A DNA stretch of 64,000 bases, taken from Lactobacillus sp. (GTDB lineage Bacteria; Bacillota; Bacilli; Lactobacillales; Lactobacillaceae). Location: NCBI GenBank assembly GCA_022483245.1, contig JAKVNR010000001.1, positions 496,001 through 560,000 of the forward strand, written 5' to 3'. Position numbers and translations under genes: made by a program. Every line of letters starts with the position of its first letter. Within the stretch, counting starts at the first letter, position 1. The notes beneath the pieces are model-generated. The model ran no database searches. It was given only the letters and a program-made list of their open reading frames with translations, and was not told where the DNA came from. Shown here piece by piece: positions 18,501 to 63,547 of this stretch.

Positions 18501-19604
18501 ATGAAAGTTTTAAAAAGAATCGGCATTGTTGTTTTGATTTTAATAGGTCTGTTCTTGGTGATTTTTGGCGGCTACTATTGGTATCTAGCAGCGCATTATT
18601 ACCGCATTCCAGACCACCAAAAACTGCATGTTGGCAACCAGCAAACCGCCGTTTTGCAGACCGGGAAGTCTTATAAGGCAACTACTTATAATGTTGGTTT
18701 TGGTGCCTATAACCAGCAGTTTGACTTTTTCATGGATAAGGGCGAGCTGAAAAATGGTCAAAAGCTGCATGGTCACCGCGGAACAGCCTTTTCTAAGCAG
18801 GCAGTCCTGACCTCAACTAATGGCGTAATTCAGACGATGAAACAGCAGCAGCCTGATTTTATGTTTTTCCAGGAAATTGATACGGATTCAACGCGGAGTT
18901 TTCACGTTAATCAAGTAAAAAAGGTTGAACAGGCCTTCGATCAAATGGATTATGCCTTTGCTTCTAATTTTCACTCGGCTTATTTAGCCGTTCCGCTGAC
19001 TAATCCGCATGGGACGGTACGGTCAGGTTTGTTAAGCATGAGCAAGTACCAAATGACCAGTGCAGAGCGCCGCAAGTATCCAGTTTCAGCCGGGCCAGTC
19101 GAAAAGTTTGTCGATTTGGACCGCTGCTTTGTAGTGATGAAGTTCCCAGTCAAAAATGGCAAGTCACTGGTGATGATTAATTCGCATATGTCGGCTTATG
19201 ATAAAGGCGGCAAAATGCGCAAAGCACAAATGAAGCTGATTTCAAGCGTGATGGAGCATGAATATCAGCAAGGCAATTATGTCATTGTCGGCGGGGACTT
19301 TAACCATGCTTTGGGTCAAGACATGATGACTCACTTTGAACATGAAGAAAAGATTCCAAGCTGGGTGTCACCATTAACGCAAAGCATGCTGCCAAAGGAC
19401 TTTACGATGGTCCGGGCGCAAAATCGGGAGACAGTCCCGACTTGCCGGGCGACGGATATGAAATATGATCCGAAGATCAACTATATGACCATTTGCGATG
19501 GTTTTATTGTTTCAAAAAATGTGACGGCAACGGCGACTAATTTAAATACGCAGTTTAAGTATGCCGATCATAATCCAGTGAGATTAACATTTAAGTTGAA
19601 TTAA
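18501..19604 (+). CDS. Membrane-anchored endonuclease/exonuclease/phosphatase-family protein (copy 1)
   Basis: The 367-residue protein starts with one strong membrane helix (about residues 7-30) followed by an EEP-fold domain. Active-site landmarks are Asn64 (TYNVGFG), Glu125 (QEID), Asp266 and Asn268 (GGDFNH), and Asp356-His357 (ADHNPV). The helix topology suggests the domain faces outside. EEP proteins cleave phosphodiesters or phosphomonoesters, and the substrate here is unknown. It is strikingly similar to the protein at 33920-35014. The ribosome binding site is weak. A terminator follows. Confidence 0.85.
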   Translation: MKVLKRIGIVVLILIGLFLVIFGGYYWYLAAHYYRIPDHQKLHVGNQQTAVLQTGKSYKATTYNVGFGAYNQQFDFFMDKGELKNGQKLHGHRGTAFSKQAVLTSTNGVIQTMKQQQPDFMFFQEIDTDSTRSFHVNQVKKVEQAFDQMDYAFASNFHSAYLAVPLTNPHGTVRSGLLSMSKYQMTSAERRKYPVSAGPVEKFVDLDRCFVVMKFPVKNGKSLVMINSHMSAYDKGGKMRKAQMKLISSVMEHEYQQGNYVIVGGDFNHALGQDMMTHFEHEEKIPSWVSPLTQSMLPKDFTMVRAQNRETVPTCRATDMKYDPKINYMTICDGFIVSKNVTATATNLNTQFKYADHNPVRLTFKLN

Positions 19605-19610
19605 TGAATA

Positions 19611-19648
19611 AAAAGCAGTTTTTTTAATACCAAAAGAAACTGCTTTTT
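19611..19648 (+). terminator. Terminator of EEP copy 1
   Basis: AAAAGCAGTTT pairs with AAACTGCTTTT and ends in T residues. Confidence 0.85.
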
Positions 19649-19690
19649 GCGTATATAAAAATAGAGGGGATTACTAAAGTTAAAAATGGT

Positions 19691-19715
19691 GAATACAATG
19701 AATACCGTGTATACT
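19691..19715 (+). promoter_or_regulatory. Tandem 9-nt repeats over the -10 of the antitoxin-toxin operon
   Basis: GAATAC-AAT, GAATAC-CGT and GTATAC occur in exact 9-nt register at 19691, 19700 and 19709. The last overlaps a TATACT -10 box. The placement suits an operator for the AbrB-type antitoxin. Confidence 0.45.
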
Positions 19716-19733
19716 TGAGAAGAGGTGATATTT

Positions 19734-20003
19734 ATGTTTGTTAAGGCGCGCCATCAAGGAAATTCAATTGTCCTGACTATTCCGAAAAGTATCAATGTCA
19801 AAGCAAATACTGAATATAGTGTAATGCAAGGCGAAGATGGCTCAATTATTTATAAACCAGTAAACAAGCAAAAATATGATATTTGGTCAGACCATTCACT
19901 TGATAATTTAGATTATGAGCAAATCCAAAAACAAGAGTATCAAGATTTAGGCTACAATCCCCGAGAATTAAAACCAGTTGGAAAGGAAAAATTTAATGGT
20001 TAA
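19734..20003 (+). CDS. AbrB/MazE-like antitoxin
   Basis: The 89-residue protein has an N-terminal SpoVT/AbrB swapped-hairpin domain (VKARHQGNSIVLTIPKSINV) that binds DNA. Its acidic C-terminal tail is the part that would wrap the toxin. AGAGGTG lies before the ATG at 19734. A GTG three codons earlier is inside the ribosome binding site. The stop overlaps the toxin start by 8 nt, as in many toxin-antitoxin pairs. The toxin gene is frameshifted, so this antitoxin may now have no partner at this locus. Confidence 0.83.
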   Translation: MFVKARHQGNSIVLTIPKSINVKANTEYSVMQGEDGSIIYKPVNKQKYDIWSDHSLDNLDYEQIQKQEYQDLGYNPRELKPVGKEKFNG

Positions 20004-20363
20004 AATTCGGCAAGGAGATATAGTTTATTTAGATGCTGATCCTCATGCTGGACATGAAATGGGTGGGCATTCGCCTGCAACAGGTAATGTTAGGCGCCTT
20101 TTTTAGTTGTCAGTCGACAAAGTTATCAGGAGAGAGCTAGTTTAATTATTGGACTTGCTATTACGCACGTTCATCGCGATTCACCGTTTAGATTTCCAAT
20201 TATTGACCTCAATAGCAAAATAAATGGTGATGCATTATTACTGCAATTATTGAGTTATGATTATATTGCTAGACACGGACAAATAGTCGGACATTTGAAT
20301 AATCAGCGACAACTTGATGATATTTTGTTCCAAGTCCAAAATATTTTTAAAAAAGAATCATAG
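19996..20363 (+). pseudogene. MazF/PemK-type toxin, frameshifted
   Basis: The frame starts MVKIRQGDIVYLDADPHAGH, the typical MazF/PemK opening, and runs into TAG within 40 codons at GCGCCTTTTTTAG (20095-20107). One added base before the T run (CGC CCT TTT TTA) restores the conserved RPFLVVS followed by SYQERASLIIGLAITHVHRD and a normal C-terminus ending at 20363. The lesion is thus a single-base deletion in a C run. MazF toxins are mRNA interferases, and the shifted gene should be inactive. A slippage-prone T run is adjacent, so a sequencing error or phase variation remains possible. Confidence 0.87.
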
Positions 20364-20369
20364 TATCAA

Positions 20370-20397
20370 AAAAGGACGAGCATTAGCTCGTCCTTTT
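20370..20397. terminator. Convergent intrinsic terminator
   Basis: AAAAGGACGAGC (20370-20381) and GCTCGTCCTTTT (20386-20397) form a perfect stem between the mazF remnant and the small membrane protein gene. Confidence 0.88.
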
Positions 20398-20413
20398 ACT
20401 TTATACTTAACGA

Positions 20414-20626
20414 TTATTGGTCTTGCTGCTTACCCTTGATAAACAGCAACCAAGCAATCTGGAATTCAGCAATTAAAACAAACACTGCCACTACAAGCAC
20501 ATACATTAGGGCATGCGAAAGTGGCTCGCCTAATTCGCTAGTGTCAAACGGGTGACTTTCAATCAGGTAAATAATGACCCCTAACAGAAAGACCCAGTAG
20601 GCATTAGCGCCCCACCACATCTTCAT
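20414..20626 (-). CDS. Small two-helix membrane protein, unknown function
   Basis: I do not recognise this 70-residue protein. It has two clear membrane segments (AYWVFLLGVIIYLI and ALMYVLVVAVFVLIAEF) separated by a short polar, acidic loop, and a basic C-terminal end (FIKGKQQDQ). The ribosome binding site is poor. A 24-bp region upstream carries a perfect inverted repeat, TTATACT (20653-20659) and AGTATAA (20670-20676). The gene follows the histidine kinase gene on the same strand, about 100 nt downstream, and could be part of that system, but there is no direct evidence. Confidence 0.55.
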   Translation of the reverse strand: MKMWWGANAYWVFLLGVIIYLIESHPFDTSELGEPLSHALMYVLVVAVFVLIAEFQIAWLLFIKGKQQDQ

Positions 20627-20652
20627 CGTCTTAAACGCTTTCTATCTATCAT

Positions 20653-20676
20653 TTATACTATCCAGTTACAGTATAA
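20653..20676. repeat. Inverted repeat upstream of the small membrane protein
   Basis: Perfect 7-bp arms TTATACT / AGTATAA with a 10-nt spacer. They include TATACT-like boxes on both strands, so they may form an operator-promoter element. Confidence 0.4.
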
Positions 20677-20731
20677 CATGAAAGCGCATACATTGGCGAT
20701 AAATTAAGAAAAAAGTGGCTTTTATTTAAAT

Positions 20732-21991
20732 TTATTTAGCTAATTTCAAAACGATGGTAAAAATGATCATTGGTTCGCGGTAATCAACTTTAATTTTCCC
20801 GCGGAAGGCATGAACTAATTCCTGCGCCATCGACAGGCCGATCCCAAAGCCCTGACGTTTTTGATTATGCGATTCATCGGCGCGGTAGAAGCGATCAAAG
20901 AACTGATTAAAGTTTTGACCCTTACCGGCTTGGTAAGTATTACTAATTTTTAAAACCGCAGAATTGCTTAGTTTGCTTGGTGCCAAGTCGATTTGTACCT
21001 GACCCTTTGGGTCACAATACTTTTGAGCATTATCTAAAAAGATGTTAATGAGCTCAGTCAGAGACTTTTCTTCAGCTAGTACAGTTAGATTTGGTTGTAC
21101 GTTGGTGATAAATTGCAGCCCTTGCTTCTCCATAACAGGTTTAAAGCTGGTACCAGCTTTTTGTACAATCCCCGACAAGTCAACAGGGGACAGGGTGAGT
21201 TCACCAGTTTCTCCGGTGCGGGCGATGGCAATCAAGTGATCAATCAACTGCGTCAGCCGCTTGGTTTGCTCTTTAGTACTTTCTGTCCATTCACTAGCTT
21301 GACCAGTCATTTCTTGCATTTCAGTGTTGGCTGAAATAATCGTTAATGGCGTCTTCAGCTCATGCCCAGCATTCGTGATGAATTGCTGCTGTTTATGGTA
21401 GGTTTCAATAATTGGTTTGATCGCTTTTTTGGATAAACCAATTAAAATCAAAGCAAAGAAAATTAATGAGCACAGGCCAAGGATGATACCCAGCCGAAGC
21501 AGGCTCCAAGAGTGGGCATAAATCAAAGAGATATTTAGGAAAATAATTGCTTGTTGGCCAGTCTGGCTGCGATAGCAGTGATAACTATAAACATTATTAT
21601 TAAATCTAATCCGTCCGTCTTTTTTGCCACTAGCTAAAATCGACTTAACTTGACTATTAATTTTTGACTGTGACCAAGTAAAATTCTTGGGCTGGTTAGT
21701 CAAAATAACCTGTTTTTTATTAATAACAACCCGGAAATATCGGTATTGGTAGGCTGATTCTGGGTTAGGTTTGCCGTTAATAAAGCGATTTGGCACGCCG
21801 CCATCAATTTGCTTAGAGGCATTAGGATTCAGAGTGCCGTCATTTTTAACGAGAGCGGTCATGACGCGGTTAGCTTCATTATGATTATGATAAAAGCTAA
21901 TCCCGACTAACCCGCCGATCGAAACAAGCAGGACAATCAGCAGCGAACAGACCGAAATAGTAATAAAACGCCAGCGAAATTTTTGAATCAT
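20732..21991 (-). CDS. Two-component sensor histidine kinase
   Basis: The 419-residue kinase has two membrane helices (about residues 9-34 and 165-186) flanking an extracellular sensor domain of about 125 residues. It then has the dimerisation helix with the phospho-acceptor His210 (NAGHELKTPLTI), the N box (IFLDNAQKY) and the G box (GFGIGLSMA). Its start overlaps the response-regulator stop by four nt (ATGA). The third gene of the operon is a small alarmone synthetase. The partner response regulator carries an amber codon, so this kinase may currently lack a working cognate output. Confidence 0.93.
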   Translation of the reverse strand: MIQKFRWRFITISVCSLLIVLLVSIGGLVGISFYHNHNEANRVMTALVKNDGTLNPNASKQIDGGVPNRFINGKPNPESAYQYRYFRVVINKKQVILTNQPKNFTWSQSKINSQVKSILASGKKDGRIRFNNNVYSYHCYRSQTGQQAIIFLNISLIYAHSWSLLRLGIILGLCSLIFFALILIGLSKKAIKPIIETYHKQQQFITNAGHELKTPLTIISANTEMQEMTGQASEWTESTKEQTKRLTQLIDHLIAIARTGETGELTLSPVDLSGIVQKAGTSFKPVMEKQGLQFITNVQPNLTVLAEEKSLTELINIFLDNAQKYCDPKGQVQIDLAPSKLSNSAVLKISNTYQAGKGQNFNQFFDRFYRADESHNQKRQGFGIGLSMAQELVHAFRGKIKVDYREPMIIFTIVLKLAK

Positions 21992-51625: not shown

Positions 51626-52504
51626 TTATCTTTCTAAATCAAACTTGTTGATGTCATACATCCACGCAAAGCCCATTGATTTTTCGCCTAAGTGAGTGGC
51701 GATGCTTGGCGTAAATTCCGTAAATTCAACGGCTTGACCCGGAAATAGTTGCTTAACGTCATGCTGCATCTTTTCAGCTTGTTTTAAATCATTCGAGTGA
51801 ATCACTAAAAAACACAACTTGTCTTTGTATGGCAGCTTGGCAATCCGCTCTTGGGCCAGCTCTTCAACTTTGGCTAAAGCCCGCTTCATTGATCTGACCT
51901 TATCAAAAGCCACGATTTTGCCGTCCTCAAAAGTTAACAACGGTTTGATATGCAGAAGTGAACCAATAAAAGCACTCGCATTGCTCAGCCGGCCATTTTT
52001 TTGCAAATTGTTTAAATCGTCAACGATGAAGAGTTCATCAATCGTTGCCCGCAACTGGTCTAAACGCTCGATAATTTCAGCTGGTGCCAAGTCATTAGCA
52101 GCCATTTTAGCAGCGGCAATAGCTAAATTACCCTGCATCTTAACTGTCATGCCGGAATCATATGGATATAAATTGAATTCAGGGTGTTCTTGCTTAACCG
52201 AATTCAAGGTATTAAACCAGCAACTGATTCCACTTGATAAGGCAATCGCGATAATGGCATCATAACCATTTTCATGCAGCTTTTTGCAAGTAGCAATGAC
52301 ATCGCCTAAACGCGGTTGTGATGTATGCGGAAAGCCGCCAGTTTCTTTTTGAATCTCAAAAAATTGCTTGGTCGTAATATTAACGCCATCCAAAAAAGAC
52401 TGACCAGCAATTTCAATCGGCGTGGCAATGACTTGAATTTGATATTTTTCTTGATCAGCACTCGAAAGACCACAAGTGCTGTCAGTGATAACAGCTATCT
52501 TCAA
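51626..52504 (-). CDS. DegV family fatty-acid-binding protein (FakB-like), copy 1
   Basis: The 292-residue DegV protein has ITDSTCGL, the Thr/Ser pocket HTSQPRLGD, ALSSGIS and NLQKNGRLSNASAFIGSLL. Such proteins bind a fatty acid and present it to FakA kinase for phosphorylation. No fakA is in the window. It starts at TTG behind GAGGAAG. Its operon partners are a MarR regulator and a hydroxyacyl-CoA-like dehydrogenase. A paralogue lies at 62672. Confidence 0.9.
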   Translation of the reverse strand: MKIAVITDSTCGLSSADQEKYQIQVIATPIEIAGQSFLDGVNITTKQFFEIQKETGGFPHTSQPRLGDVIATCKKLHENGYDAIIAIALSSGISCWFNTLNSVKQEHPEFNLYPYDSGMTVKMQGNLAIAAAKMAANDLAPAEIIERLDQLRATIDELFIVDDLNNLQKNGRLSNASAFIGSLLHIKPLLTFEDGKIVAFDKVRSMKRALAKVEELAQERIAKLPYKDKLCFLVIHSNDLKQAEKMQHDVKQLFPGQAVEFTEFTPSIATHLGEKSMGFAWMYDINKFDLER

Positions 52505-53223: not shown

Positions 53224-54912
53224 ATGGCTTTTGATGGTTTATTTATTCATAGTTTGCTGACTGCCATCTCCCCTACCCTGCTTAACAGCAAACTTTCTAA
53301 AATTTACCAACCCTTTGAACATGACTTGATTTTCGTTTTTCGTCAGCAGCGAAAAAATTATAAATTGTTAGTTTCAGCTAATTCTCAATCTCCGCGTTTT
53401 TATTTCCAAACTGAGGAAATTCCTAATCCAGATAAAGCACCTGCTTTTGTCATGGTTTTACGTAAATATTTAGCTGGCTCGATTCTGAAAAAGGTTGAAC
53501 AAGTCGGGCTGGACCGCATCGTTAATTTTTACTTTTCAAATCGCAATGAATTAGGCGATGAAGTCAATTTGATGCTTTCATTTGAATTAATGGGCAGACA
53601 CAGCAATGTCATTTTAGTAGACCAAACTTCTGGCAAAATTATTGATTTGCTCAAACGAATCAATCCAGATGAAAACCGGGCTCGCTTGCTGCTGCCTCAT
53701 GCTAGTTATGAACTGCCGCCACTCAAACCTGGAATTAATCCTTTAACTTTGACTGAAGAGAAGTTTAAGCAACTAGCTAATGAATTATCACCAGATCAAT
53801 TGGTGCCGCAAGTCACTGGACTTGATCGTGATGATCGCGATGAATTGCTCGGCTATTTAACTGATGATTATTCATTTAGTTCCTGGCAAACTTTCTTTAA
53901 TCAGCTGGATCATCCTAAAGTATATGTTTTACAGAATGAACGACACCGCGAGCGCATTTTCTTATACCTGCCCTACCACCTTGATTTGACCCTCGTCAGC
54001 AAATCTGAACACCTCAACGAGGCATTAGAAGAGTTTTATCATGATCAGGCAACCCGTGATTGGGTCCGTCAAAAATCTGGCCAGATTCGCACGGTTGTCA
54101 AAAATGAGCAGAAGAAACTGCGCAAAAAAATCGCTAAGTTAAAACAGCAATTAGATGCCGCGCACAATGCTGATTCCTTGCGGATCAAAGGTGAACTGCT
54201 TAACACTTACCTGCGTCAAGTTCCCGCTGGTGCTAAATCTGTTGACCTACCTAATTACTACGACAACAACCAGCCGCTTACGATTGAGTTAGATCCGTCC
54301 TTGCGGCCTGAGCGCAATGCCCAGAAATACTTTACCCGCTACCAAAAACTGCGCGATTCGGTTAAACACGTGCATGAACAGATCAAGTTAGCTGAAGAAG
54401 ATTTAGCTTACTTTGAAACTATTCAAACTGAGATAGATATTGCTGATCCGCAAGATATTGATGCCATTAACGATGAGCTGATTAATCAAGGCTACTTGCA
54501 TGTCCAGAAAAAGCCGCAGCGCCGCAAGAAGATCACGACTCGTAATTTGCCGCAGTTTAAATTAACTTCGGGCAAGATAGTGTTAGTTGGTAAGAATAAT
54601 TACGAAAATGATTGGCTAACCTTTAAAAAGGCTAATAAAAACGATTACTGGTTCCATGTCAAAAATATGCCGGGTTCGCACACAATTTTGCAAGATAGCA
54701 ATCCCAGCCCAGAAGACATTAAAGAAGCAGCTGAAATTGCCGCCTACTTTTCTAAAGGCAAAAATTCTAGCCACGTTCCAGTTGACTACATCCAAGTCAA
54801 GCGAATTAAAAAGCCACATGGCAGCAAACCTGGTTTTGTGACCTACCGGGGACAGAATTCGATTGAAGCTACCCCAGTTGAAAGCAATGTCTTAGCTAAA
54901 AAAATCAAATAG
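53224..54912 (+). CDS. rqcH: Rqc2/NFACT protein RqcH (FbpA-like)
   Basis: The 562-residue NFACT protein has the N-terminal NFACT-N domain with Asp97-Arg98 in GLDRI, the residues needed by Bacillus RqcH to recruit tRNA-Ala. It also has a central coiled coil (EQKKLRKKIAKLKQQLDAA, about residues 295-315 and later) and the C-terminal NFACT-R domain (WFHVKNMPGSH). RqcH adds alanine tails to stalled chains on 50S subunits. Older annotation calls it fibronectin-binding FbpA. A strong AAGGAGGAG site precedes the ATG. Confidence 0.93.
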   Translation: MAFDGLFIHSLLTAISPTLLNSKLSKIYQPFEHDLIFVFRQQRKNYKLLVSANSQSPRFYFQTEEIPNPDKAPAFVMVLRKYLAGSILKKVEQVGLDRIVNFYFSNRNELGDEVNLMLSFELMGRHSNVILVDQTSGKIIDLLKRINPDENRARLLLPHASYELPPLKPGINPLTLTEEKFKQLANELSPDQLVPQVTGLDRDDRDELLGYLTDDYSFSSWQTFFNQLDHPKVYVLQNERHRERIFLYLPYHLDLTLVSKSEHLNEALEEFYHDQATRDWVRQKSGQIRTVVKNEQKKLRKKIAKLKQQLDAAHNADSLRIKGELLNTYLRQVPAGAKSVDLPNYYDNNQPLTIELDPSLRPERNAQKYFTRYQKLRDSVKHVHEQIKLAEEDLAYFETIQTEIDIADPQDIDAINDELINQGYLHVQKKPQRRKKITTRNLPQFKLTSGKIVLVGKNNYENDWLTFKKANKNDYWFHVKNMPGSHTILQDSNPSPEDIKEAAEIAAYFSKGKNSSHVPVDYIQVKRIKKPHGSKPGFVTYRGQNSIEATPVESNVLAKKIK

Positions 54913-54964: not shown

Positions 54965-57900
54965 TTAAATTGGCTGCGTTGTTAACGATAGCGATTCTAA
55001 AACTTCCAACACAAATTCCGCCGTCTGCAAGCTTGAAAAGACAGGAATATGAGTGCTTAAAGCTTGATCGCGGATCCTAATTGCGTCTTGACTAGCCGCA
55101 TCAGAAAAGTCGGTAACATTGATGACTAATTTGATTTGGTGATTAAACAGTTTACTTAATAAACTATCGCTGCCTTGGTGAATTTTTTTGACAATATCCG
55201 TCGTAATACCAGCTTCAGCCAGCATGTTGGCGGTCCCTTCCGTCGCAATCAGCTTAAAGCCTAATCGGTGGAAACGCTTAGCAATCGCCGTTGCCCGCTC
55301 TTTATCCTTATCTTTAACAGAGATAAAGATTGTCCCGTAAGTTGGAACATACAGCCCGCTAGCTTCATATCCCTTGTAAAGGGCTTTAGACAAAGCCGGG
55401 TCACGGCCAATGACGTTGCCTGCAGTTTTCATCTTTGAATCAAAAGTATTGCCGCTGTGGTAATTTAACCAGCTAGAAACTGGCATTTTAATATAGATTA
55501 GCTGATTAGTCAGCCGCCATGAATCAGACTTAATCAAATCTGGCAATTTTTCCCCGAGCAAGATTGAAGTGGTCAGGCCCACTAAGTCTTGGTTTAAAAC
55601 CTTCGACATAAAGGCCAAATTATGGCCAGCGTAAGTTTTTAGCTGCAAAAAGTATAAGTGGCCGTCTGCAATTAAAAAGTTCAAGTTAATCGGGCCTACT
55701 AAGTGTTTAGACTTAATTAAAGACGCTGTGGCAGCACGCATAGCTTGCTCATCGGTTTTTCTTAAGTTTTGGGGCGGAAAAACAGCGATTGAATCACTCG
55801 CATGTGAGCCTGATTGTTCCAAGTGCTCAATAATTCCTGGAATAGTGACGTTTTCTCCATCAGAAATTGCGGCGACTTCATATTTAGACCCAGCAATAAA
55901 TTTGGAAATCCGAATCGTCTTTAAATCATTTTCTTGAATATACTTGCTCAAGGCCGGCATATCAAAGACAACCGCTGATTTTTGTTCTTGCTTTTGGTGA
56001 CTGGTTCCGCCAATCAAAACTGGAAAACCAACTTTGACAGCAAAACTATAAGCCTTATTTTCATCGCTTGTGCGCAAAGCTGGTGGCATTGAAAATGTCA
56101 ACGGTTCCGTAACAGCATGCCAGTTTGGTTTAGTCAAATCTGACTGGCCCAAAATTTTAAGGCCGGCATCAACTAGCTGTTTGCGCAAGGCATTAACTTT
56201 TTTACCAGAAAATTCAGTCAGCACTTCGGTGATTTGTTCACGTTCTGCTACATCCAAGATATTTTCAAGGGTAACTGGTTCAAAATAAACCCGATCAACG
56301 GCATTGTAAGCTGCTGAAATAGCCTCCGCGTTATTGCTCAATAAAATAGCAGTACGCCCTTGGGCTTTTAAAGTTTGGGCGGCTTGGTACAGCATAAAGT
56401 CAAATTCGCTTGTTTGCGAAACTTGGAACGGATAAAGTCCAACCAAGAGTACTTTATTTTGGCTGCTTTGTTTACCAGCTTCGTCTTCAACATCATAGGC
56501 CGAATAAACAGCATTGATTTTCGGCTGCCAAATGCCAGCGGTGCCGTTGATCTGCAAGTAAACAGGTTCAATTCCTGCTTGCTGGCGGGCTTGGCGAATT
56601 TCACGCGCTGACATGGACGCTAAACCAGCAATAGTTTTATCCGACAAACCGACTTTTTTAGCGGCCAGTAAGAGCGAATTAGGGGGTACTTGGCTAGTGA
56701 CCAGCTGATTCATGACTTCAACTGCCCGGTCTAAGCTATGCAAAAAAAGCGGTTGAATGTTAGTAATTGCTTGAATTTTTTGCAAGCTGATTTTACGCGC
56801 TAAAGCAGCCAGCAAGACAATCAAATGTACTTCACTTGGGTGTCGCAAATCATCAATGACTTCATCATCATTTTTAGAAATTTCTTGCTTAAAGACATTG
56901 GCGGCATTAGTAAAACTCATCGTGGAGTACAAGCCTTTGAAAAAGGCCGCTGAAAAATCGATGCCTAAACTAATAGCTTCACCGCTCGCCTGCATTCTAG
57001 GGCCTAAGTCATAATGATTATAGCCGCTGTCTGAAAATGACCAATACGGCGTTTTGACAGCCACTGCATCTAGCACAGGTTCAACAGCTGCATTTAAATC
57101 AGATTCAGGATCAGTAATTTCATTTAAGTTATAGCCTAAGGCCAATTTGGCTGTGACATAACCTAGACTATAAACACCAGCCCGATAAGCTAATAAGGAA
57201 CTGCGGGCAATCCGCGGTTTAAAACCTAAAATTTTGATCACAATTTGATTGTTTTCATGCTTAATCGCAAAGTGAATGCTTAAAGCACCGACTAAATCTA
57301 GGTTAGCAGCCACTTTTCCAGCACAGGCGCGCAGGCGCTGCACTTCATCGTTGTTAAAACCTAACAGCGGAGAAATCAGGACTGAATCGCCTGAGTTAAT
57401 CGCTACCGGTTCTAAAGAAGAAGCCAAATTGATAAAGCAGTTGTTGCCATTGGCGTCTCGCACTAAGTCAATAATAACTTCTTCCCAATCAGATAAGTCT
57501 TCAGTGATGCGGTAATCATGCAGATTAAAGTGTTCGCTTGCCGCTTCTTGGTCAAAATATTTAGCAATGCTGGCTTGATCACTAAAGTGCAGGTGATCAT
57601 TTTTAACGTAGCGATGATACTTGGTCAAAAGCACCGGATAAGCTAATTGCTTGAGCGTTGAAGCTAGTGGAACACTCTTTTGCAAGCGCCAAGATTTACT
57701 GGTCGGCAATTGATTATCGCGCAAAAATTTAAGCTGCTGACTCTGCTGCTGCAATAGCAAAGCTTTTTTTGTCACCGTTAACAATTCAATGTGCATCTCA
57801 TGCAAAATGCCATCTTCTAGCAGCTGCCTGGTTAAATTTAAGCCGACTAAACTACCATATGCAGTCACAATGGCATTAGGTTCTTCGATCCGCAAAATTC

Positions 57901-58126
57901 GCTTCATGAATGACAGCGTCAGCGGTTCCATATAAATAGTGACGCCAGGTCGTTTATTAGTCGCGATAGTAGCTGGGTTAGGATTAACTAAGACAACTTG
58001 CACGTTATCTTCAACAAAAGCATCAATTGCCTGCTTTGTCATTAAATCCAATTCCGCCACCGCCCCAACAATATTAGGGCCGGACCCGATAATTAATACT
58101 TTGTTTAAATCAGTTCTTAATGGCAT
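54965..58126 (-). CDS. carB: Degenerate carbamoyl-phosphate synthase large subunit-like protein (CarB-like)
   Basis: The 1053-residue frame aligns end to end with CarB, but the catalytic signatures are gone. In half 1 the Glu/Asn metal pair of IEVNPR is Gly301/Lys303 (ILGFKPRIARSS), and the RPxxxxGGxGG nucleotide loop is YPVLLTKYHRY. In half 2 the pair is Gln828/Lys830 (FLQLKTYAG), and the loop is FPVLIGGTSHQ. The GSGP loop of half 2 is absent (LVGLYPFQVS). By contrast the C-terminal MGS-like domain (residues about 930-1045: GTIFISVKDKDKERATAIAK, LIATEGTANMLAEAGI) looks canonical. No stop or frameshift interrupts 3.16 kb. It should not make carbamoyl phosphate. Its start overlaps carA by 17 nt, with a weak ribosome binding site. 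Confidence 0.9.
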   Translation of the reverse strand: MPLRTDLNKVLIIGSGPNIVGAVAELDLMTKQAIDAFVEDNVQVVLVNPNPATIATNKRPGVTIYMEPLTLSFMKRILRIEEPNAIVTAYGSLVGLNLTRQLLEDGILHEMHIELLTVTKKALLLQQQSQQLKFLRDNQLPTSKSWRLQKSVPLASTLKQLAYPVLLTKYHRYVKNDHLHFSDQASIAKYFDQEAASEHFNLHDYRITEDLSDWEEVIIDLVRDANGNNCFINLASSLEPVAINSGDSVLISPLLGFNNDEVQRLRACAGKVAANLDLVGALSIHFAIKHENNQIVIKILGFKPRIARSSLLAYRAGVYSLGYVTAKLALGYNLNEITDPESDLNAAVEPVLDAVAVKTPYWSFSDSGYNHYDLGPRMQASGEAISLGIDFSAAFFKGLYSTMSFTNAANVFKQEISKNDDEVIDDLRHPSEVHLIVLLAALARKISLQKIQAITNIQPLFLHSLDRAVEVMNQLVTSQVPPNSLLLAAKKVGLSDKTIAGLASMSAREIRQARQQAGIEPVYLQINGTAGIWQPKINAVYSAYDVEDEAGKQSSQNKVLLVGLYPFQVSQTSEFDFMLYQAAQTLKAQGRTAILLSNNAEAISAAYNAVDRVYFEPVTLENILDVAEREQITEVLTEFSGKKVNALRKQLVDAGLKILGQSDLTKPNWHAVTEPLTFSMPPALRTSDENKAYSFAVKVGFPVLIGGTSHQKQEQKSAVVFDMPALSKYIQENDLKTIRISKFIAGSKYEVAAISDGENVTIPGIIEHLEQSGSHASDSIAVFPPQNLRKTDEQAMRAATASLIKSKHLVGPINLNFLIADGHLYFLQLKTYAGHNLAFMSKVLNQDLVGLTTSILLGEKLPDLIKSDSWRLTNQLIYIKMPVSSWLNYHSGNTFDSKMKTAGNVIGRDPALSKALYKGYEASGLYVPTYGTIFISVKDKDKERATAIAKRFHRLGFKLIATEGTANMLAEAGITTDIVKKIHQGSDSLLSKLFNHQIKLVINVTDFSDAASQDAIRIRDQALSTHIPVFSSLQTAEFVLEVLESLSLTTQPI

Positions 58127-59177
58127 TTTTGTTCATCAACTTAAAGAAATCATCGAAAATTACACTCGCTTCAAATGCACCAGGCGAACCTTCAGGATTA
58201 AAGGCCGTTGCTAGGATTTGTTCTTGCTCAAAACTGTAGCCCGCCAGCAGGTCGCTATGCAAATCATAATACTTCTCTGAAAAATCGTATTCGATGGTTT
58301 GCGGGAGCGCCAGCTGCGAGATATTCATCGCAGTTTGCCAAACGCGGCCGGTATTCTGAGCAATCACGGGATAGTTGCTGCCGTTATAAGCAGGCTGTAA
58401 ATCAGCCAATTCAAAGTTCAAGTAGTCGCTCAGCGCTAAAAAGCCTAAGCCAATGCCTAAGACTGGCATTTTCGTCAAGAAACGTTTAAAAATTGGCGCT
58501 AAGCCTGCACGGACTTCTTTTACTGTCCCCGGTCCATTTGAGACAATCAAGCCATTCGGCTGTAAATTAGCAATATCTTCGGCACTAGCAGTCACGGGCA
58601 TGACGACTACGTTGATTTGACGCAGCGACAATGACCGCAAAAGAGAATTTTTTAAACCTAAGTCAATGACTGCTACTGTTTCGCCAATATTGGGAACAGC
58701 ATAGGCGTTAGTAGTTGAAGTTTGCGCCGTTTTATTTTTGGGTAGCACCAAAGCCTTAATCTGATCAAAAGCATGCTGGTCATCAGTATCCATAATAGAG
58801 GCCTTGATCACAGGTTCAGTAACCAACTTACGGACCAGCGCGTGCGTATCAACGCCAAAAATTCCCGGAATACCCTTTTCTTGCAGGAATTCATTTAAGT
58901 TTTCAGTAGCTGGTTGCTGAGCTGGTGCAATTCCGCCAGCAATAATGCCCTTAATACGCGGATTAATTGCTTCGTAGTCGATCGCATTAATTCCGCTAGC
59001 TCCAATTAAGGGAGTAGAAAACAACAAGATTTTTCCATCATTAGCAGGGTCAGTTAACGCCTCTTGATAACCATAATTACCAGTAAACAGGGCTAGTTCG
59101 CCCGTCGCAATAATTGAGGCGCCAAAGCCTTCACCGGCAAAAGCCGTGCCGTCAGCCAAAATTAAGTAGCGCTTCAT
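58110..59177 (-). CDS. carA: Degenerate carbamoyl-phosphate synthase small subunit-like protein (CarA-like)
   Basis: The 355-residue protein keeps the CarA N-terminal domain (LADGTAFAGEGFGA, GNYGYQEALTDP, IPGIFGVDTHALVRKL) and a class-I glutamine amidotransferase fold. The glutaminase residues, however, are missing. The nucleophile Cys of GICLGHQ is Gly243 (GIGLGFL), the next His is Phe246, and the catalytic His of QYHPE is Asn327 (AFNPEGSPG). Glutamine hydrolysis should be impossible. The frame is intact, has AGAGGC before its ATG and overlaps rluD by four nt and the CarB-like gene by 17 nt. It is therefore still produced as a coupled pair. Confidence 0.9.
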   Translation of the reverse strand: MKRYLILADGTAFAGEGFGASIIATGELALFTGNYGYQEALTDPANDGKILLFSTPLIGASGINAIDYEAINPRIKGIIAGGIAPAQQPATENLNEFLQEKGIPGIFGVDTHALVRKLVTEPVIKASIMDTDDQHAFDQIKALVLPKNKTAQTSTTNAYAVPNIGETVAVIDLGLKNSLLRSLSLRQINVVVMPVTASAEDIANLQPNGLIVSNGPGTVKEVRAGLAPIFKRFLTKMPVLGIGLGFLALSDYLNFELADLQPAYNGSNYPVIAQNTGRVWQTAMNISQLALPQTIEYDFSEKYYDLHSDLLAGYSFEQEQILATAFNPEGSPGAFEASVIFDDFFKLMNKNAIKN

Positions 59178-60085
59178 TGCTTTGCCTCTTTTCTTAATTG
59201 ACCCAGAGTTGTTTGAAAAATAGTCGGTGGTTCAACCGAAAATTCACACCATTTGCCAGTCCGGGGATGCTTGAAGCCTAAAACTTCTGCATGCAAAAAT
59301 TGACCGTGACCAGCTAACGTGTGCCGCGGTCCATACAAGGGATCGCCCGCAACTGGATGACCGATATAAGCTAGATGCACGCGAATCTGATGCGTTCGCC
59401 CAGTTTCTAATTGACAAGCCAGCAAGCTATAGCCTTTAAACTGTTCTAGCACTCTAAAATGCGTTACCGCCGGCTTCCCATTAGCCTCCACGGCCATTTG
59501 CTTGCGATTAGCAGGATTGCGGCCAATTGGTGCATCAACTGTGCCAGTTTTTTCATTAAAATTGCCGTGCACAATCGCTAAATAAACACGTTTATTGCTT
59601 TTTTCAGCGAGTTGTTCTTCAAGTGATTGACGGGCGGCCATGTTCTTAGCAATCATGAGCAAACCTGAAGTATCTTTATCAATGCGGTGGACAATGCCCG
59701 GCCGAAATCCTTCTGGGCTTTTAGCTAAATCGCGGGTGTGGTATAAAAGCGCATTGACTAAAGTATGGTCAGGATGGCCAGCTGATGGGTGAACAACCAT
59801 GCCTTGCGGTTTATTGACAACAATCACATCTTGATCTTCATAAATAATATCTAGTGGCAAATCTTCAGGCTCTAAACTAAGCGGCTTCAAAGGCGGAACA
59901 TGGACCGCTACTTCAGCCGGCTGTTCCAGTTTAAACGAGCCCTTTTCTGACTTGCCAGCCACTAGAATATCGCCGCTTTTAATTAAAGCTTGGACTCTGG
60001 TTCGACTTAAATCTGCGACTTGCTCAGCCACAAATTTATCTAAGCGCTCGCCGGTCCCTGCAGCCTGCAGTAAGTAATCAGTCAT
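59174..60085 (-). CDS. rluD: RluA/RluD-family pseudouridine synthase
   Basis: The 303-residue enzyme has an N-terminal S4 RNA-binding domain (RLDKFVAEQVADLSRTRVQALIKSG) and the catalytic motif HRIDKDTSGLLM with the nucleophile Asp. TGRTHQIRVHL and GDPLYGP complete the active site. It isomerises uridines in 23S rRNA. AAGGAGA fits the ATG at 60085, six codons inside the longest frame. That ATG lies in the last codons of lspA (ATGACTGA), showing coupling. Confidence 0.94.
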   Translation of the reverse strand: MTDYLLQAAGTGERLDKFVAEQVADLSRTRVQALIKSGDILVAGKSEKGSFKLEQPAEVAVHVPPLKPLSLEPEDLPLDIIYEDQDVIVVNKPQGMVVHPSAGHPDHTLVNALLYHTRDLAKSPEGFRPGIVHRIDKDTSGLLMIAKNMAARQSLEEQLAEKSNKRVYLAIVHGNFNEKTGTVDAPIGRNPANRKQMAVEANGKPAVTHFRVLEQFKGYSLLACQLETGRTHQIRVHLAYIGHPVAGDPLYGPRHTLAGHGQFLHAEVLGFKHPRTGKWCEFSVEPPTIFQTTLGQLRKEAKQ

Positions 60086-60539
60086 GCTTCTCCTTGTCTT
60101 CAAAGAAAATTAGATAAATAAAGATCAGAATAATTCCGACCGTAATGGCACTATCGGCGATATTGAAAATATTAAAATTCATAAAATCTAATTGAATCAT
60201 ATCCACGACGTAGTGATAGCGAATTCGGTCGATCAAATTACCGATAATGCCACCCAGTACCAAACTTAACCCGACGCTAAATAAGACAGAACGTGGCGAT
60301 TGCTTGAATAGATAATACAAAACAATAGCAATCGCTACCGCTGAGATGATATAGAAAAAGACCATCCGCCCCGGAAAAATATTCCAAGCTGCCCCATTAT
60401 TGCGTAAATAGGTCAGCGAAAATAAGCCGGGCAAAGCCGGCTTAACTTGTCCTAGCGCCCAATGATTAACAATTAAGGACTTTAAGCCCTGATCGGCGAG
60501 GATAACAATCAAAGAAATAATTAAATAAAGTGCTTGCAT
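60078..60539 (-). CDS. lspA: Lipoprotein signal peptidase
   Basis: A 153-residue aspartic membrane peptidase that cleaves prolipoproteins such as the two OppA-type proteins here. Four membrane helices are seen. Catalytic Asp residues lie in GNLIDRIRYHYVVDMI and FNIADSAITVG, and NNGAAWNIF is the conserved third box. Its ATG overlaps the fhs stop (TAATG), and it overlaps rluD by eight nt. Confidence 0.95.
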   Translation of the reverse strand: MQALYLIISLIVILADQGLKSLIVNHWALGQVKPALPGLFSLTYLRNNGAAWNIFPGRMVFFYIISAVAIAIVLYYLFKQSPRSVLFSVGLSLVLGGIIGNLIDRIRYHYVVDMIQLDFMNFNIFNIADSAITVGIILIFIYLIFFEDKEKHD

Positions 60540-62231: not shown

Positions 62232-62576
62232 TTAATTTTTCTCAAGAACTAAATAAGTCAGCTGTTTGTAATCAGACAACTTGGCTTGATAAATATGAAT
62301 CATCGAAAAGGCAAATAGCAACTTGGTGGACTCAATGGTCTGTGCTTTGCGTTGATAAGGCAATCTAATTTTGGTTTGCTCACCCTCCTTGCTAAGATAA
62401 CAAGTCAAAAAACTATAGAGCAAAGCCGCAGCAAACACTGCCCCAACAGCAATGGCAGGCCAAGAGATGCTACGGTTGCTTTCATAGCCGATAATAAAAG
62501 CAATAAATAGCACATCCAGCAACCAGCTGTTGTAAATTAGGCCGGCTTTACCTAAAAGCAGGCAATGTTTCTTCAT
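62232..62576 (-). CDS. Small membrane protein (possibly EbsA-like)
   Basis: The 114-residue protein has two membrane helices ([15 protein letters not shown] and [21 protein letters not shown]) followed by a basic, probably cytoplasmic tail. It may belong to the EbsA-like proteins of lactobacilli and enterococci, but I cannot confirm this. ATAAGGAG precedes the ATG. It is the first gene of the fhs operon, ending 13 nt before fhs. A TATAAT box about 30 nt upstream on the minus strand is the likely -10. Confidence 0.65.
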
Positions 62577-62671
62577 AGGCGCTCCTTATGATAAGATTTT
62601 CATAGATATTATAGCAGAAAAGCCGGCAACTTGATTGCTGGCAATTGGGATAGAAATTTGGAGTGAACAAC

Positions 62672-63547
62672 ATGAAAATCGGAGTTTTAACTGATAGTTC
62701 CGCCTATCTGACCCCCGAAGAACAGCAGGCAGATGGTATTAAGGTTTTGCCGATTCCTATTATTTGGGGCAAGCAAACTTATTACGACTTAGTCACGATC
62801 GGCTTTCACGAATTTTATCAAAAATTAGCCTCAGATTCAGACTTGCCGAATACCTCCCAGCCATCGACTGGGGAGCTAAAAGAAGCAATTGATAAATTTG
62901 TTGCTGATGGTTACACAGATGTGTTTGTCATTACTTTATCAAGTGGTATTTCCGGCTTTTACAACAACGTGGTGCAATATGCTCAGCAAGAAGACCGGCT
63001 TAAGATTCACCCCTTTGATTCAAAAGTAACTTGCGCTGGGTTAGCCTTCCAAGCCCAACTGGCTGGTCGTTTAGCCAAAACTGGCGCTGACGCAGAGACA
63101 ATTCAGGCTGCTTTAGAAGACTTGCGCAGCACAACCAGGGTCCGGTTTGAAGTTGATAATTTACAGCACCTAAAGCGGACTGGCCGGCTATCAAACGCGG
63201 CCAGCTTCATTGGGGGCTTGCTGAAAATCAAACCGATTTTAACCATGAATGTTCAAACTGACGGCAAAATTGTAGCGATTGCCAAAGAACGTCAAGAAAG
63301 ACGGGCCCTGCGCCATATCATTACTGATGTGCAAACTGATATAGCCAAAGCTAATTATCCAGTTCAGGGGACGATTTTCCATGCTGATGACGAGGCAAAA
63401 GAAGACGCCTGGTGCAAAGCTTTTCAAACTGAGGTTCCAACTATGCGCTTAGGCCGCAGCATTATTGGCCCAGTAGTTGGAACGCACGTTGGCCAGCATA
63501 CAATGTCGATTATCTGGGCGAAAGACTTAGCTGAATATTTCAAATAG
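62672..63547 (+). CDS. DegV family fatty-acid-binding protein (FakB-like), copy 2
   Basis: The 291-residue DegV protein has VLTDSSAYLT, the ligand pocket NTSQPSTGEL, TLSSGISG and NLQHLKRTGRLSNAASFIGGLL. It should bind a fatty acid for FakA-dependent phosphorylation. It differs clearly from the copy at 51626, so the two may prefer saturated and unsaturated chains as FakB1/FakB2 do (inference). TTTGGAG is well spaced from the ATG at 62672. A GTG three codons earlier overlaps that site. Confidence 0.9.
   Translation: MKIGVLTDSSAYLTPEEQQADGIKVLPIPIIWGKQTYYDLVTIGFHEFYQKLASDSDLPNTSQPSTGELKEAIDKFVADGYTDVFVITLSSGISGFYNNVVQYAQQEDRLKIHPFDSKVTCAGLAFQAQLAGRLAKTGADAETIQAALEDLRSTTRVRFEVDNLQHLKRTGRLSNAASFIGGLLKIKPILTMNVQTDGKIVAIAKERQERRALRHIITDVQTDIAKANYPVQGTIFHADDEAKEDAWCKAFQTEVPTMRLGRSIIGPVVGTHVGQHTMSIIWAKDLAEYFK

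Follow-up and report, generated by a model that had tools for sequence, protein, structure and literature searches.

The window analysed here is a stretch of 64,000 nucleotides from a Lactobacillus sp. (assembly GCA_022483245.1, contig JAKVNR010000001.1, positions 496,001 to 560,000 of the forward strand). On its minus strand, positions 54965-58126 hold an open frame of 1053 codons for a relative of CarB, the large subunit of carbamoyl-phosphate synthase (CPS), a well-known channelling enzyme whose three active centres are coupled. A preliminary description, made from the sequence alone, had proposed that this protein, here called CarB', is a maintained pseudoenzyme. The proposal is supported by the loss of the sites, by a low ratio of nonsynonymous to synonymous substitution rates (dN/dS) and by a genus-wide occurrence. 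Our finding goes further: CarB' is one part of a dead two-subunit enzyme, together with the small subunit CarA'. The pair is present throughout the genus and has counterparts through most of the family, and the effector domain of CarB' is preserved. We regard it as almost certain that the pair is dead and maintained in Lactobacillus. Whether the whole explanation that we favour is correct, namely that CarA'-CarB' is an ancient, maintained dead CPS pair acting as a ligand-sensing regulatory complex, appears to us evenly balanced, and for the sensor mechanism taken by itself our confidence is slightly lower.

Loss of the active centres and preservation of the effector domain

The features of the pair, with their positions in the window, are as follows.

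54965..58126, minus strand: CarB', dead CPS large subunit of 1053 amino acids (profile matches, alignment, model)
58110..59177, minus strand: CarA', dead CPS small subunit (glutaminase) of 355 amino acids, overlapping CarB' by 17 bases
57218..57226, minus strand: metal-ligand positions of half 1 of CarB', where Glu299-Met-Asn301 is replaced by Gly301-Phe-Lys303
55622..55645, minus strand: site of half 2 of CarB', where Glu841-Val-Asn843-Pro-Arg845-Ala-Ala-Arg848 is replaced by Gln828-Leu-Lys830-Thr-Tyr832-Ala-Gly-His835; Gln, Lys, Tyr and His are identical in 57-58 of 58 orthologs
54968..55342, minus strand: MGS-like effector domain of CarB', residues 929-1053, with the residues S936, K942, T962, T965, K981, N1003 and T1005 of the site for uridine or inosine monophosphate (UMP/IMP) kept
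58449..58451, minus strand: Gly243 of CarA', in place of the catalytic Cys269
58197..58199, minus strand: Asn327 of CarA', in place of the catalytic His353

The frame is colinear with CarB, as the preliminary description had stated. CarB' matched the NCBIfam model NF003671 over residues 1-1047 with 665.6 bits, above the equivalog cut-off of 599, while it reached 658 bits with TIGR01369, far below the cut-off of 1027. E. coli CarB could be aligned with residues 1-1027 (phmmer), and the order of domains is that of CarB (pre-ATP-grasp, ATP-grasp, oligomerisation, ATP-grasp, MGS). All 26 orthologs scanned matched the NCBIfam CPS large-subunit model. In an AlphaFold2 model calculated with 26 orthologs (predicted local distance difference test, pLDDT, 78.2; predicted template-modelling score 0.79), the CPS fold is predicted to be intact. 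The best 17 Foldseek matches of this model were E. coli CPS and human CPS1, with template-modelling (TM) scores of 0.76-0.87 relative to the query, and the first seven, all E. coli CPS, scored 0.85-0.87. The sequence identity to E. coli CarB is 26-29% for CarB' vs 48-51% for canonical Lactobacillus CarB.

For the active sites we used the numbering of E. coli CarA and CarB (L067), and the letters of the window were taken from alignments with E. coli and 14 or 16 canonical Lactobacillaceae CarB. R129, R169, D207, Q285, E299 and N301 in half 1, and R715, D753, E761, Q829, E841, N843, R845 and R848 in half 2, are what we take to be the metal- and nucleotide-binding residues. The replacements reported earlier, Gly301/Lys303 at Glu299/Asn301 and Gln828/Lys830 at Glu841/Asn843, were exactly reproduced; in half 1 the register is fixed by Pro-Arg 304-305, which follow directly. 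In half 2, GLYPFQVSQ stands in place of the loop GGGPNRIGQ of CarB. In the B-subdomains, the letters at R129, R675 and G175-G176 shift with the alignment, R129 being Ser in one alignment and Gln in another.

These losses are common to the orthologs. The ortholog alignments omitted identical sequences, CarA below 330 and CarB below 860 amino acids, as well as four fragments (the tail pieces of L033 and L090, L037, and the L085 CarA'), and the partial L085 CarB' was kept out of the invariance and site tallies. Among the 58 distinct CarB' from Lactobacillus and two sister genera, none has E299, E841 or N843, and one has N301; a canonical Glu ligand elsewhere in the chain was not found. Q285 is replaced by His in 57 of the 58, and E841Q, N843K, R848H, D753S, E761K and R715G are found in all of them. 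The half-2 pocket has lost its acidic ligands and three arginines and has gained two lysines. As judged from the aligned residues, both ATP-grasp sites of CarB' are lost.

The partner subunit shows the same picture. Cys269 and His353 presumably form the catalytic pair of the CarA glutaminase, and in CarA' of the window Gly243 stands at Cys269, Leu247 at Gln273 and Asn327 at His353. Neither Cys269 nor His353 is present in any of 57 distinct CarA' orthologs. In 16 canonical Lactobacillaceae pairs, E299, N301, E841 and N843 of CarB and C269 and H353 of CarA are all kept. The glutaminase site is likewise lost by this alignment, and with it all three active centres of the complex appear to be gone.

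The effector domain, by comparison of the residues named in PMC6245113, has intact UMP/IMP site positions in Lactobacillus CarB'. S948 and K954 are present in 58 of 58 orthologs, T974, T977, K993 and N1015 in 57, and T1017 in 52; the single odd row at T974, T977, K993 and N1015 is each time the frameshifted frame of L. hamsteri. Compared pairwise, the MGS domains of the dead set have an average identity of 0.69, with 31 of 110 columns invariant, vs 0.56 (10 of 110) in 16 canonical CarB, a contrast that is not matched because the canonical set includes the divergent type of L072-L074 and one CarB from another genus. Between the window and its nearest named relative found, the Lactobacillus metagenome-assembled genome L002 (CarB' identity 89%), the nonsynonymous rate is lowest in the MGS domain (0.017; the other three parts of CarB' have 0.058, 0.199 and 0.070).

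A break in the CarB' frame near residue 945, just before the MGS domain, is seen in the L. hamsteri draft L033 (near position 10885) and in G016 (locus L090); the tail, which is similar to CarB', continues in another frame. Either the sequence contains an error here or the effector domain has, for the first time, really been lost.

Selection and distribution in Lactobacillus

The pair is under strong purifying selection. Using YN00, CarB' has a dN/dS of 0.027-0.127 and CarA' of 0.010-0.099 (13 of 15 pairs each), although two of the 15 CarB' pairs gave no synonymous rate and many of these rates were saturated, several exceeding 1.5. The values are not near 1, which the preliminary description had named as evidence against its proposal. 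For the neighbouring genes we obtained 0.020-0.197 (rluD, 14 of 15 pairs) and 0.014-0.084 (NFACT, 10 of 15), so that CarB' is constrained like rluD and somewhat less than NFACT. It had also been argued that a neutral frame of this length would not stay open, and the open frame is indeed not due to chance. The CarB' genes of the window and L002 differ at 695 of 3159 bases, 517 of them third codon positions; 695 random substitutions introduced on average 26 stops and at least 13 (500 trials), vs none observed.

A CarB' ortholog was found in 74 of 75 Lactobacillus genomes, including all 60 that are at least 90% complete, and the sole genome without a match is 59% complete. The surroundings of the pair in the window, which belongs to a single-contig genome of 1.555 Mb (G000), are the following.

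59174..60103, minus strand: RluD-type pseudouridine synthase, conserved upstream neighbour, ending in a 4-base overlap with the start of CarA'
60078..60539, minus strand: LspA, signal peptidase II, conserved upstream neighbour
53224..54912, plus strand: convergent gene of the NFACT family (fibronectin-binding-protein-like), the usual downstream border of the slot

Genes for LspA and a formate-tetrahydrofolate ligase precede rluD-CarA'-CarB', and the convergent NFACT gene ends the slot. In 82 loci, some of which are one genome fetched twice, rluD lies immediately 5' of the pair in 79, the other three being too short to show it. Of the 79 loci in which the gap between rluD and CarA' was measured, duplicates among them, 77 have a gap of -23 to +18 bases, and the two long gaps, in L083 and L084, hold pyrP or pyrR-pyrP. 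The NFACT gene lies within 400 bases 3' of the pair in 71 of the 82 loci, 1.9-7.3 kb off in three (L026, L034, L084), and is unseen in eight, seven of which have at most 1.4 kb of downstream sequence and one (L091) 6 kb.

DegV-like genes flank the locus on both sides (51626-52504 and 62663-63547 in the window), as in many relatives. A frame of 114 amino acids at 62232-62576 has no NCBIfam or Pfam match, and similar frames are found 5' of the formate-tetrahydrofolate ligase gene and lspA in many loci of the genus. The Rfam scan of the window from 48 to 64 kb gave no match. The preliminary description had pointed to many fresh nonsense mutations in the window, a remark that the case for a maintained pseudoenzyme does not require. 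By open reading frame length only, the window has four stretches of more than 350 bases without a frame of 110 amino acids, the longest being 19602-20734 (1.1 kb).

Where a full-length canonical CarB is present, it is a separate gene, 28-33% identical to CarB' of the window. The search for a canonical carAB that the preliminary description had suggested revealed no carA or carB elsewhere in G000. No canonical CarB was found in 13 near-complete genomes (G000, G004, G016, G018, G022, G036, G037, G038, G039, G044, G045, G067, G074), and only a fragment in G008 and G055. A scan of 12 of the 13, all but G016, with CPS models found in each genome one CarA below the model cut-off and one CarB above 600 bits, below the cut-off of 1027; those of the further, weaker CarB matches that were inspected belong to other ATP-grasp genes. 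PyrB above cut-off was found in none of the 12. A search for PyrR (E 1e-15) gave no match in seven (G022, G036, G038, G039, G044, G045, G074), and the other five, G000 included, have one PyrR, away from the slot. CarA'-CarB' persists in these 12 near-complete genomes, among them G000, without canonical CarA, CarB or PyrB.

Two further observations concern the canonical genes. In G008 a canonical carB fragment lies on contig C1 at 386971-388086 and the pyrB match has an internal stop, while the dead pair is open; the canonical operon of this genome seems to be decaying while the dead pair stays open. A further type of canonical CarAB, distant from the first, is carried by L072, L073 and L074 (G011, G032, G061); its CarB is 48% identical to that of E. 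coli, and the CarA of L072 branches outside the remaining Lactobacillales rows. This type was perhaps acquired or is perhaps linked to arginine.

Counterparts in other genera and origin of the pair

A full CarB' ortholog (E 1e-180) was detected in 28 of 397 Lactobacillaceae genomes, 25 of them Lactobacillus, two of genus g28 and one of g40. The slot itself was surveyed in one genome from each of 39 other genera (G075-G113, with G101 and G113 included). A dead CarA occupies it in 33. His353 is kept in none of these and Cys269 is replaced by Gly in 32; CarA of G107 keeps Cys269, without His353 and without an acidic residue at 355. In five genera (G085, G086, G099, G104, G105) a live carAB follows rluD-pyrR-pyrP, with further genes between pyrP and carA. 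In G102 and G107 a contig ends between rluD and the pair.

Of the 33 CarB' of these genera, 26 are short (643-901 amino acids) and seven have the full length. The Glu299/Asn301 pair of half 1 is kept in two of the 33, L142 (G095) and L176 (G096), and Glu841 in none of the 18 CarB' tabulated for half 2. Outside Lactobacillus, CarA is thus dead in all 33 genera and CarB in most, not provably in every half. The one short CarB' scanned with Pfam has no MGS domain and a single ATP-binding-domain match. Its model (pLDDT 75) consists of the N-terminal half and an abbreviated second half, and the C-terminal 180 residues are the least conserved.

Of the 33 genera with a dead CarA, 27 encode a PyrR between rluD and the pair. 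G076, G079, G091 and G101 have none at this place; the PyrR of G107 is next to rluD on a separate contig, and in G102 the contig is broken here.

At the level of the order, at least 140 of 198 genomes have a CarB above cut-off, with the best three candidates per genome scored among the matches listed, so that further families may hold dead copies as well. In G455, G489, G517, G571 (g49), G596 and G614 (g83) the CarB matches are unusually weak, from 1221 bits down to E 4e-163; the weak CarB of g49 and g83 could possibly be independent degenerate CPS in other Lactobacillales families. Several genomes of g43 (e.g. G449, G464, G477) have only a very weak match to the CarB model (E about 1e-83 to 1e-87), and congeners have a full CarB.

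The gene orders point to a stepwise loss of an operon, with rluD-pyrR-pyrP-CarA'-CarB' in G113, rluD-pyrP-CarA'-CarB' in G101 and CarA'-CarB' following rluD directly in Lactobacillus. The pyr operon is here seen eroding in the two sister genera, represented by G113 and G101. In the CarA tree, the dead clade of Lactobacillus, g28 and g40 has a support of 100/100. A recent duplication of canonical carAB within the genus was rejected: in the approximately unbiased (AU) test with six canonical Lactobacillus CarA rows (L072 omitted), a joint clade of dead and canonical Lactobacillus CarA had a p of 1.7e-5. One origin of the death, with every dead CarA in one clade, was neither supported nor rejected (23% of bootstrap trees; AU p 0.17). 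The starred branch of a quick tree, uniting all dead CarA with two live rluD-linked CarA, was absent from the careful tree and was not used. The CarA tree and the live operons in the same slot indicate that the dead pair is an old resident of the lspA-rluD slot and no recent copy, and by these comparisons it would descend in place from the carAB of a pyr operon formerly located there.

Possible role of a dead synthase

We propose that CarA' and CarB' would still form a heterodimer like CarAB, which is non-catalytic. The preserved MGS domain of the Lactobacillus proteins would bind UMP/IMP or a similar nucleotide, while the half-2 pocket, without metal ligands and with its two new lysines, may bind a second ligand or a partner, and the complex would relay the nucleotide status to some target. 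In most other genera, where the pair adjoins a PyrR, it may feed this regulator, PyrR2 of L. plantarum being reported to respond to inorganic carbon. That the half-2 pocket is a reshaped binding site, constrained in its new form, is no more than suggested by the sequence data. In half 2, a single new residue is fixed at seven of the 11 catalytic positions that were replaced, vs 27% of the columns of this half (binomial P 0.012), in a test that treats columns and related sequences as independent and whose list of sites was drawn up with the residues already seen. In half 1, one of nine replaced positions is fixed vs 17% of the columns, and the rest vary.

Several points besides the form of this test weigh against the sensor proposal. 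Most canonical CarB likewise retain the MGS residues, which could persist for other reasons. Since CarB' is short in 26 of the 33 other genera and the one scanned lacks an MGS domain, nucleotide sensing by this domain cannot be the role everywhere; since L142 and L176 keep Glu299/Asn301, not every half is dead outside Lactobacillus. The pair has been lost in G103, where rluD directly precedes the NFACT gene, and the near-complete G016, like the L. hamsteri draft, has a CarB' frame that is interrupted where the MGS domain begins. As the orthologs are related, their invariance overstates the independent evidence. PyrR is not an obligatory target, since seven of the 12 genomes with only the dead pair lack it. 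We know of no ligand or partner of the pair, and among the matches listed the open literature offered no data on its expression or phenotype.

The probabilities that we attach to other explanations overlap with the proposed sensor and with each other, and do not sum to one. The first, which we consider unlikely, is that the pair is a purely structural partner, a scaffold or assembly factor (e.g. for RluD, LspA, the ribosome or NFACT quality control), that binds no ligand. The tight spacing to rluD (77 of 79 loci) and the nearby NFACT gene (71 of 82) would fit, as would the N-terminal domain of CarA', in which 56 of 152 columns are invariant vs 40 of 152 in canonical CarA, a smaller and more mixed set. 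However, these neighbours are conserved independently, and they were adjacent before the pair died, as the live operons in the same slot show. Moreover, a scaffold would not need a preserved nucleotide site in its MGS domain.

Somewhat less likely still is that the pair regulates the pyr operon via PyrR, as a sensor of inorganic carbon or carbamoyl phosphate of the PyrR2 type, acting in trans in Lactobacillus. The PyrR directly 5' of the pair in 27 of 33 other genera is the strongest clue to the physiology. The suggestion rests also on L. plantarum, whose PyrR2 is reported to respond to inorganic carbon (PMC3582564). The locus tags given in tables of two other papers, lp_1782 for pyrR2, lp_2704 for pyrR1 and lp_1793 for a fibronectin-binding protein (PMC7911632, PMC9159523), fit a position of PyrR2 in the rluD-NFACT slot, as far as tags alone can tell. 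Against regulation through PyrR stand the dead-pair-only genomes, seven of 12 without PyrR and none with PyrB above cut-off, and the four genera without PyrR in the slot (G076, G079, G091, G101).

It appears improbable that the pair is a neofunctionalised, active enzyme, with a new metal-independent or otherwise different chemistry in half 2. Such a chemistry could account for the fixation of G706, S741, K748, Q828, K830, Y832 and H835 (window numbering) in 57-58 of 58 orthologs and for H775, E770 and D778, kept in all 58. Nevertheless, we know of no ATP-grasp enzyme that is active in the absence of acidic or Asn metal ligands, the glutaminase has died too, the catalytic positions of half 1 drift, and the second half is the least conserved part of the short forms in other genera.

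A CPS that still works with compensating residues could draw on the presence of every domain and on R303, H788, E783 and D791, retained by every CarB' ortholog, and E215, retained by nearly every one, but it is very improbable given that the catalytic and metal residues are lost jointly at three active centres and that the pair is kept in genomes without other pathway genes. A neutral remnant about to disappear, or an artefact of annotation or assembly, would agree with the loss in G103 and the frameshifted L. hamsteri draft and is hardly credible for a gene with a dN/dS of 0.03-0.13, no stop among 695 substitutions and orthologs in 60 of 60 near-complete genomes of the genus.

Two more specific ideas were discarded. 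A strict swap, in which a PyrR in the slot and an intact effector site would exclude each other, fails in G113 and G084, which have both. Bicarbonate sensing via R303 is a lead only; this residue is present in all Lactobacillus orthologs and is Tyr, Phe or another residue in most short forms.

Slightly more tentatively than the sensor mechanism as such, we suggest that the whole complex, dead at three centres, has been kept across most of the family as a metabolite sensor that outlasted its pathway and its PyrR neighbour, and that it is a candidate for the inorganic-carbon or nucleotide signal still missing in lactobacilli. The lineages would have kept opposite halves, Lactobacillus the C-terminal half with the effector domain, other genera the N-terminal half with the oligomerisation domain.

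With E. coli CarAB (pyrAA/pyrAB in Firmicutes) the pair has in common the fold (TM 0.86), the domain order, the order carA-carB, the MGS residues and the ancestral operon position; it differs in the replaced glutaminase Cys/His and in both replaced sets of ATP-grasp residues. The PyrR1/PyrR2 system of L. plantarum may correspond to the arrangement in the 27 genera where PyrR precedes the dead pair, PyrR2 being, as the tag numbers suggest, the copy concerned. It differs from Lactobacillus, where the slot has no PyrR and seven of the 12 genomes with only the dead pair lack PyrR altogether. In PMC6245113, yeast Ura2 is described as holding an inactive dihydroorotase-like domain, a domain of a pathway enzyme kept after the loss of catalysis. 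CarA'-CarB' is likewise retained without catalysis; the domain of Ura2 is, however, a linker in a working multienzyme, whereas CarA'-CarB' is an entire enzyme of two subunits that stands by itself and is retained even in genomes in which no working CPS was found. Among the matches listed, we found no description of a dead CPS in lactobacilli in the open literature, although the papers on L. plantarum PyrR2 may mention a second carAB-like pair, and novelty in print is not proven.

Overall, a dead CPS with counterparts in 33 of 39 other genera separates the allosteric and assembly roles of this enzyme from catalysis. Annotations of genes in the lspA-rluD slot as carbamoyl-phosphate synthase are unsafe. 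As CarB' of the window passes the NCBIfam equivalog cut-off, models that trust this call would credit a likely pyrimidine auxotroph with the enzyme. The Lactobacillus genomes that keep the pair apparently include species that no longer make pyrimidines, and the pair probably does a non-catalytic job. If the sensor proposal is true, it would be a natural dissection of CPS allostery without catalysis. The pair offers a testable lead on how lactobacilli may sense nucleotides or inorganic carbon.

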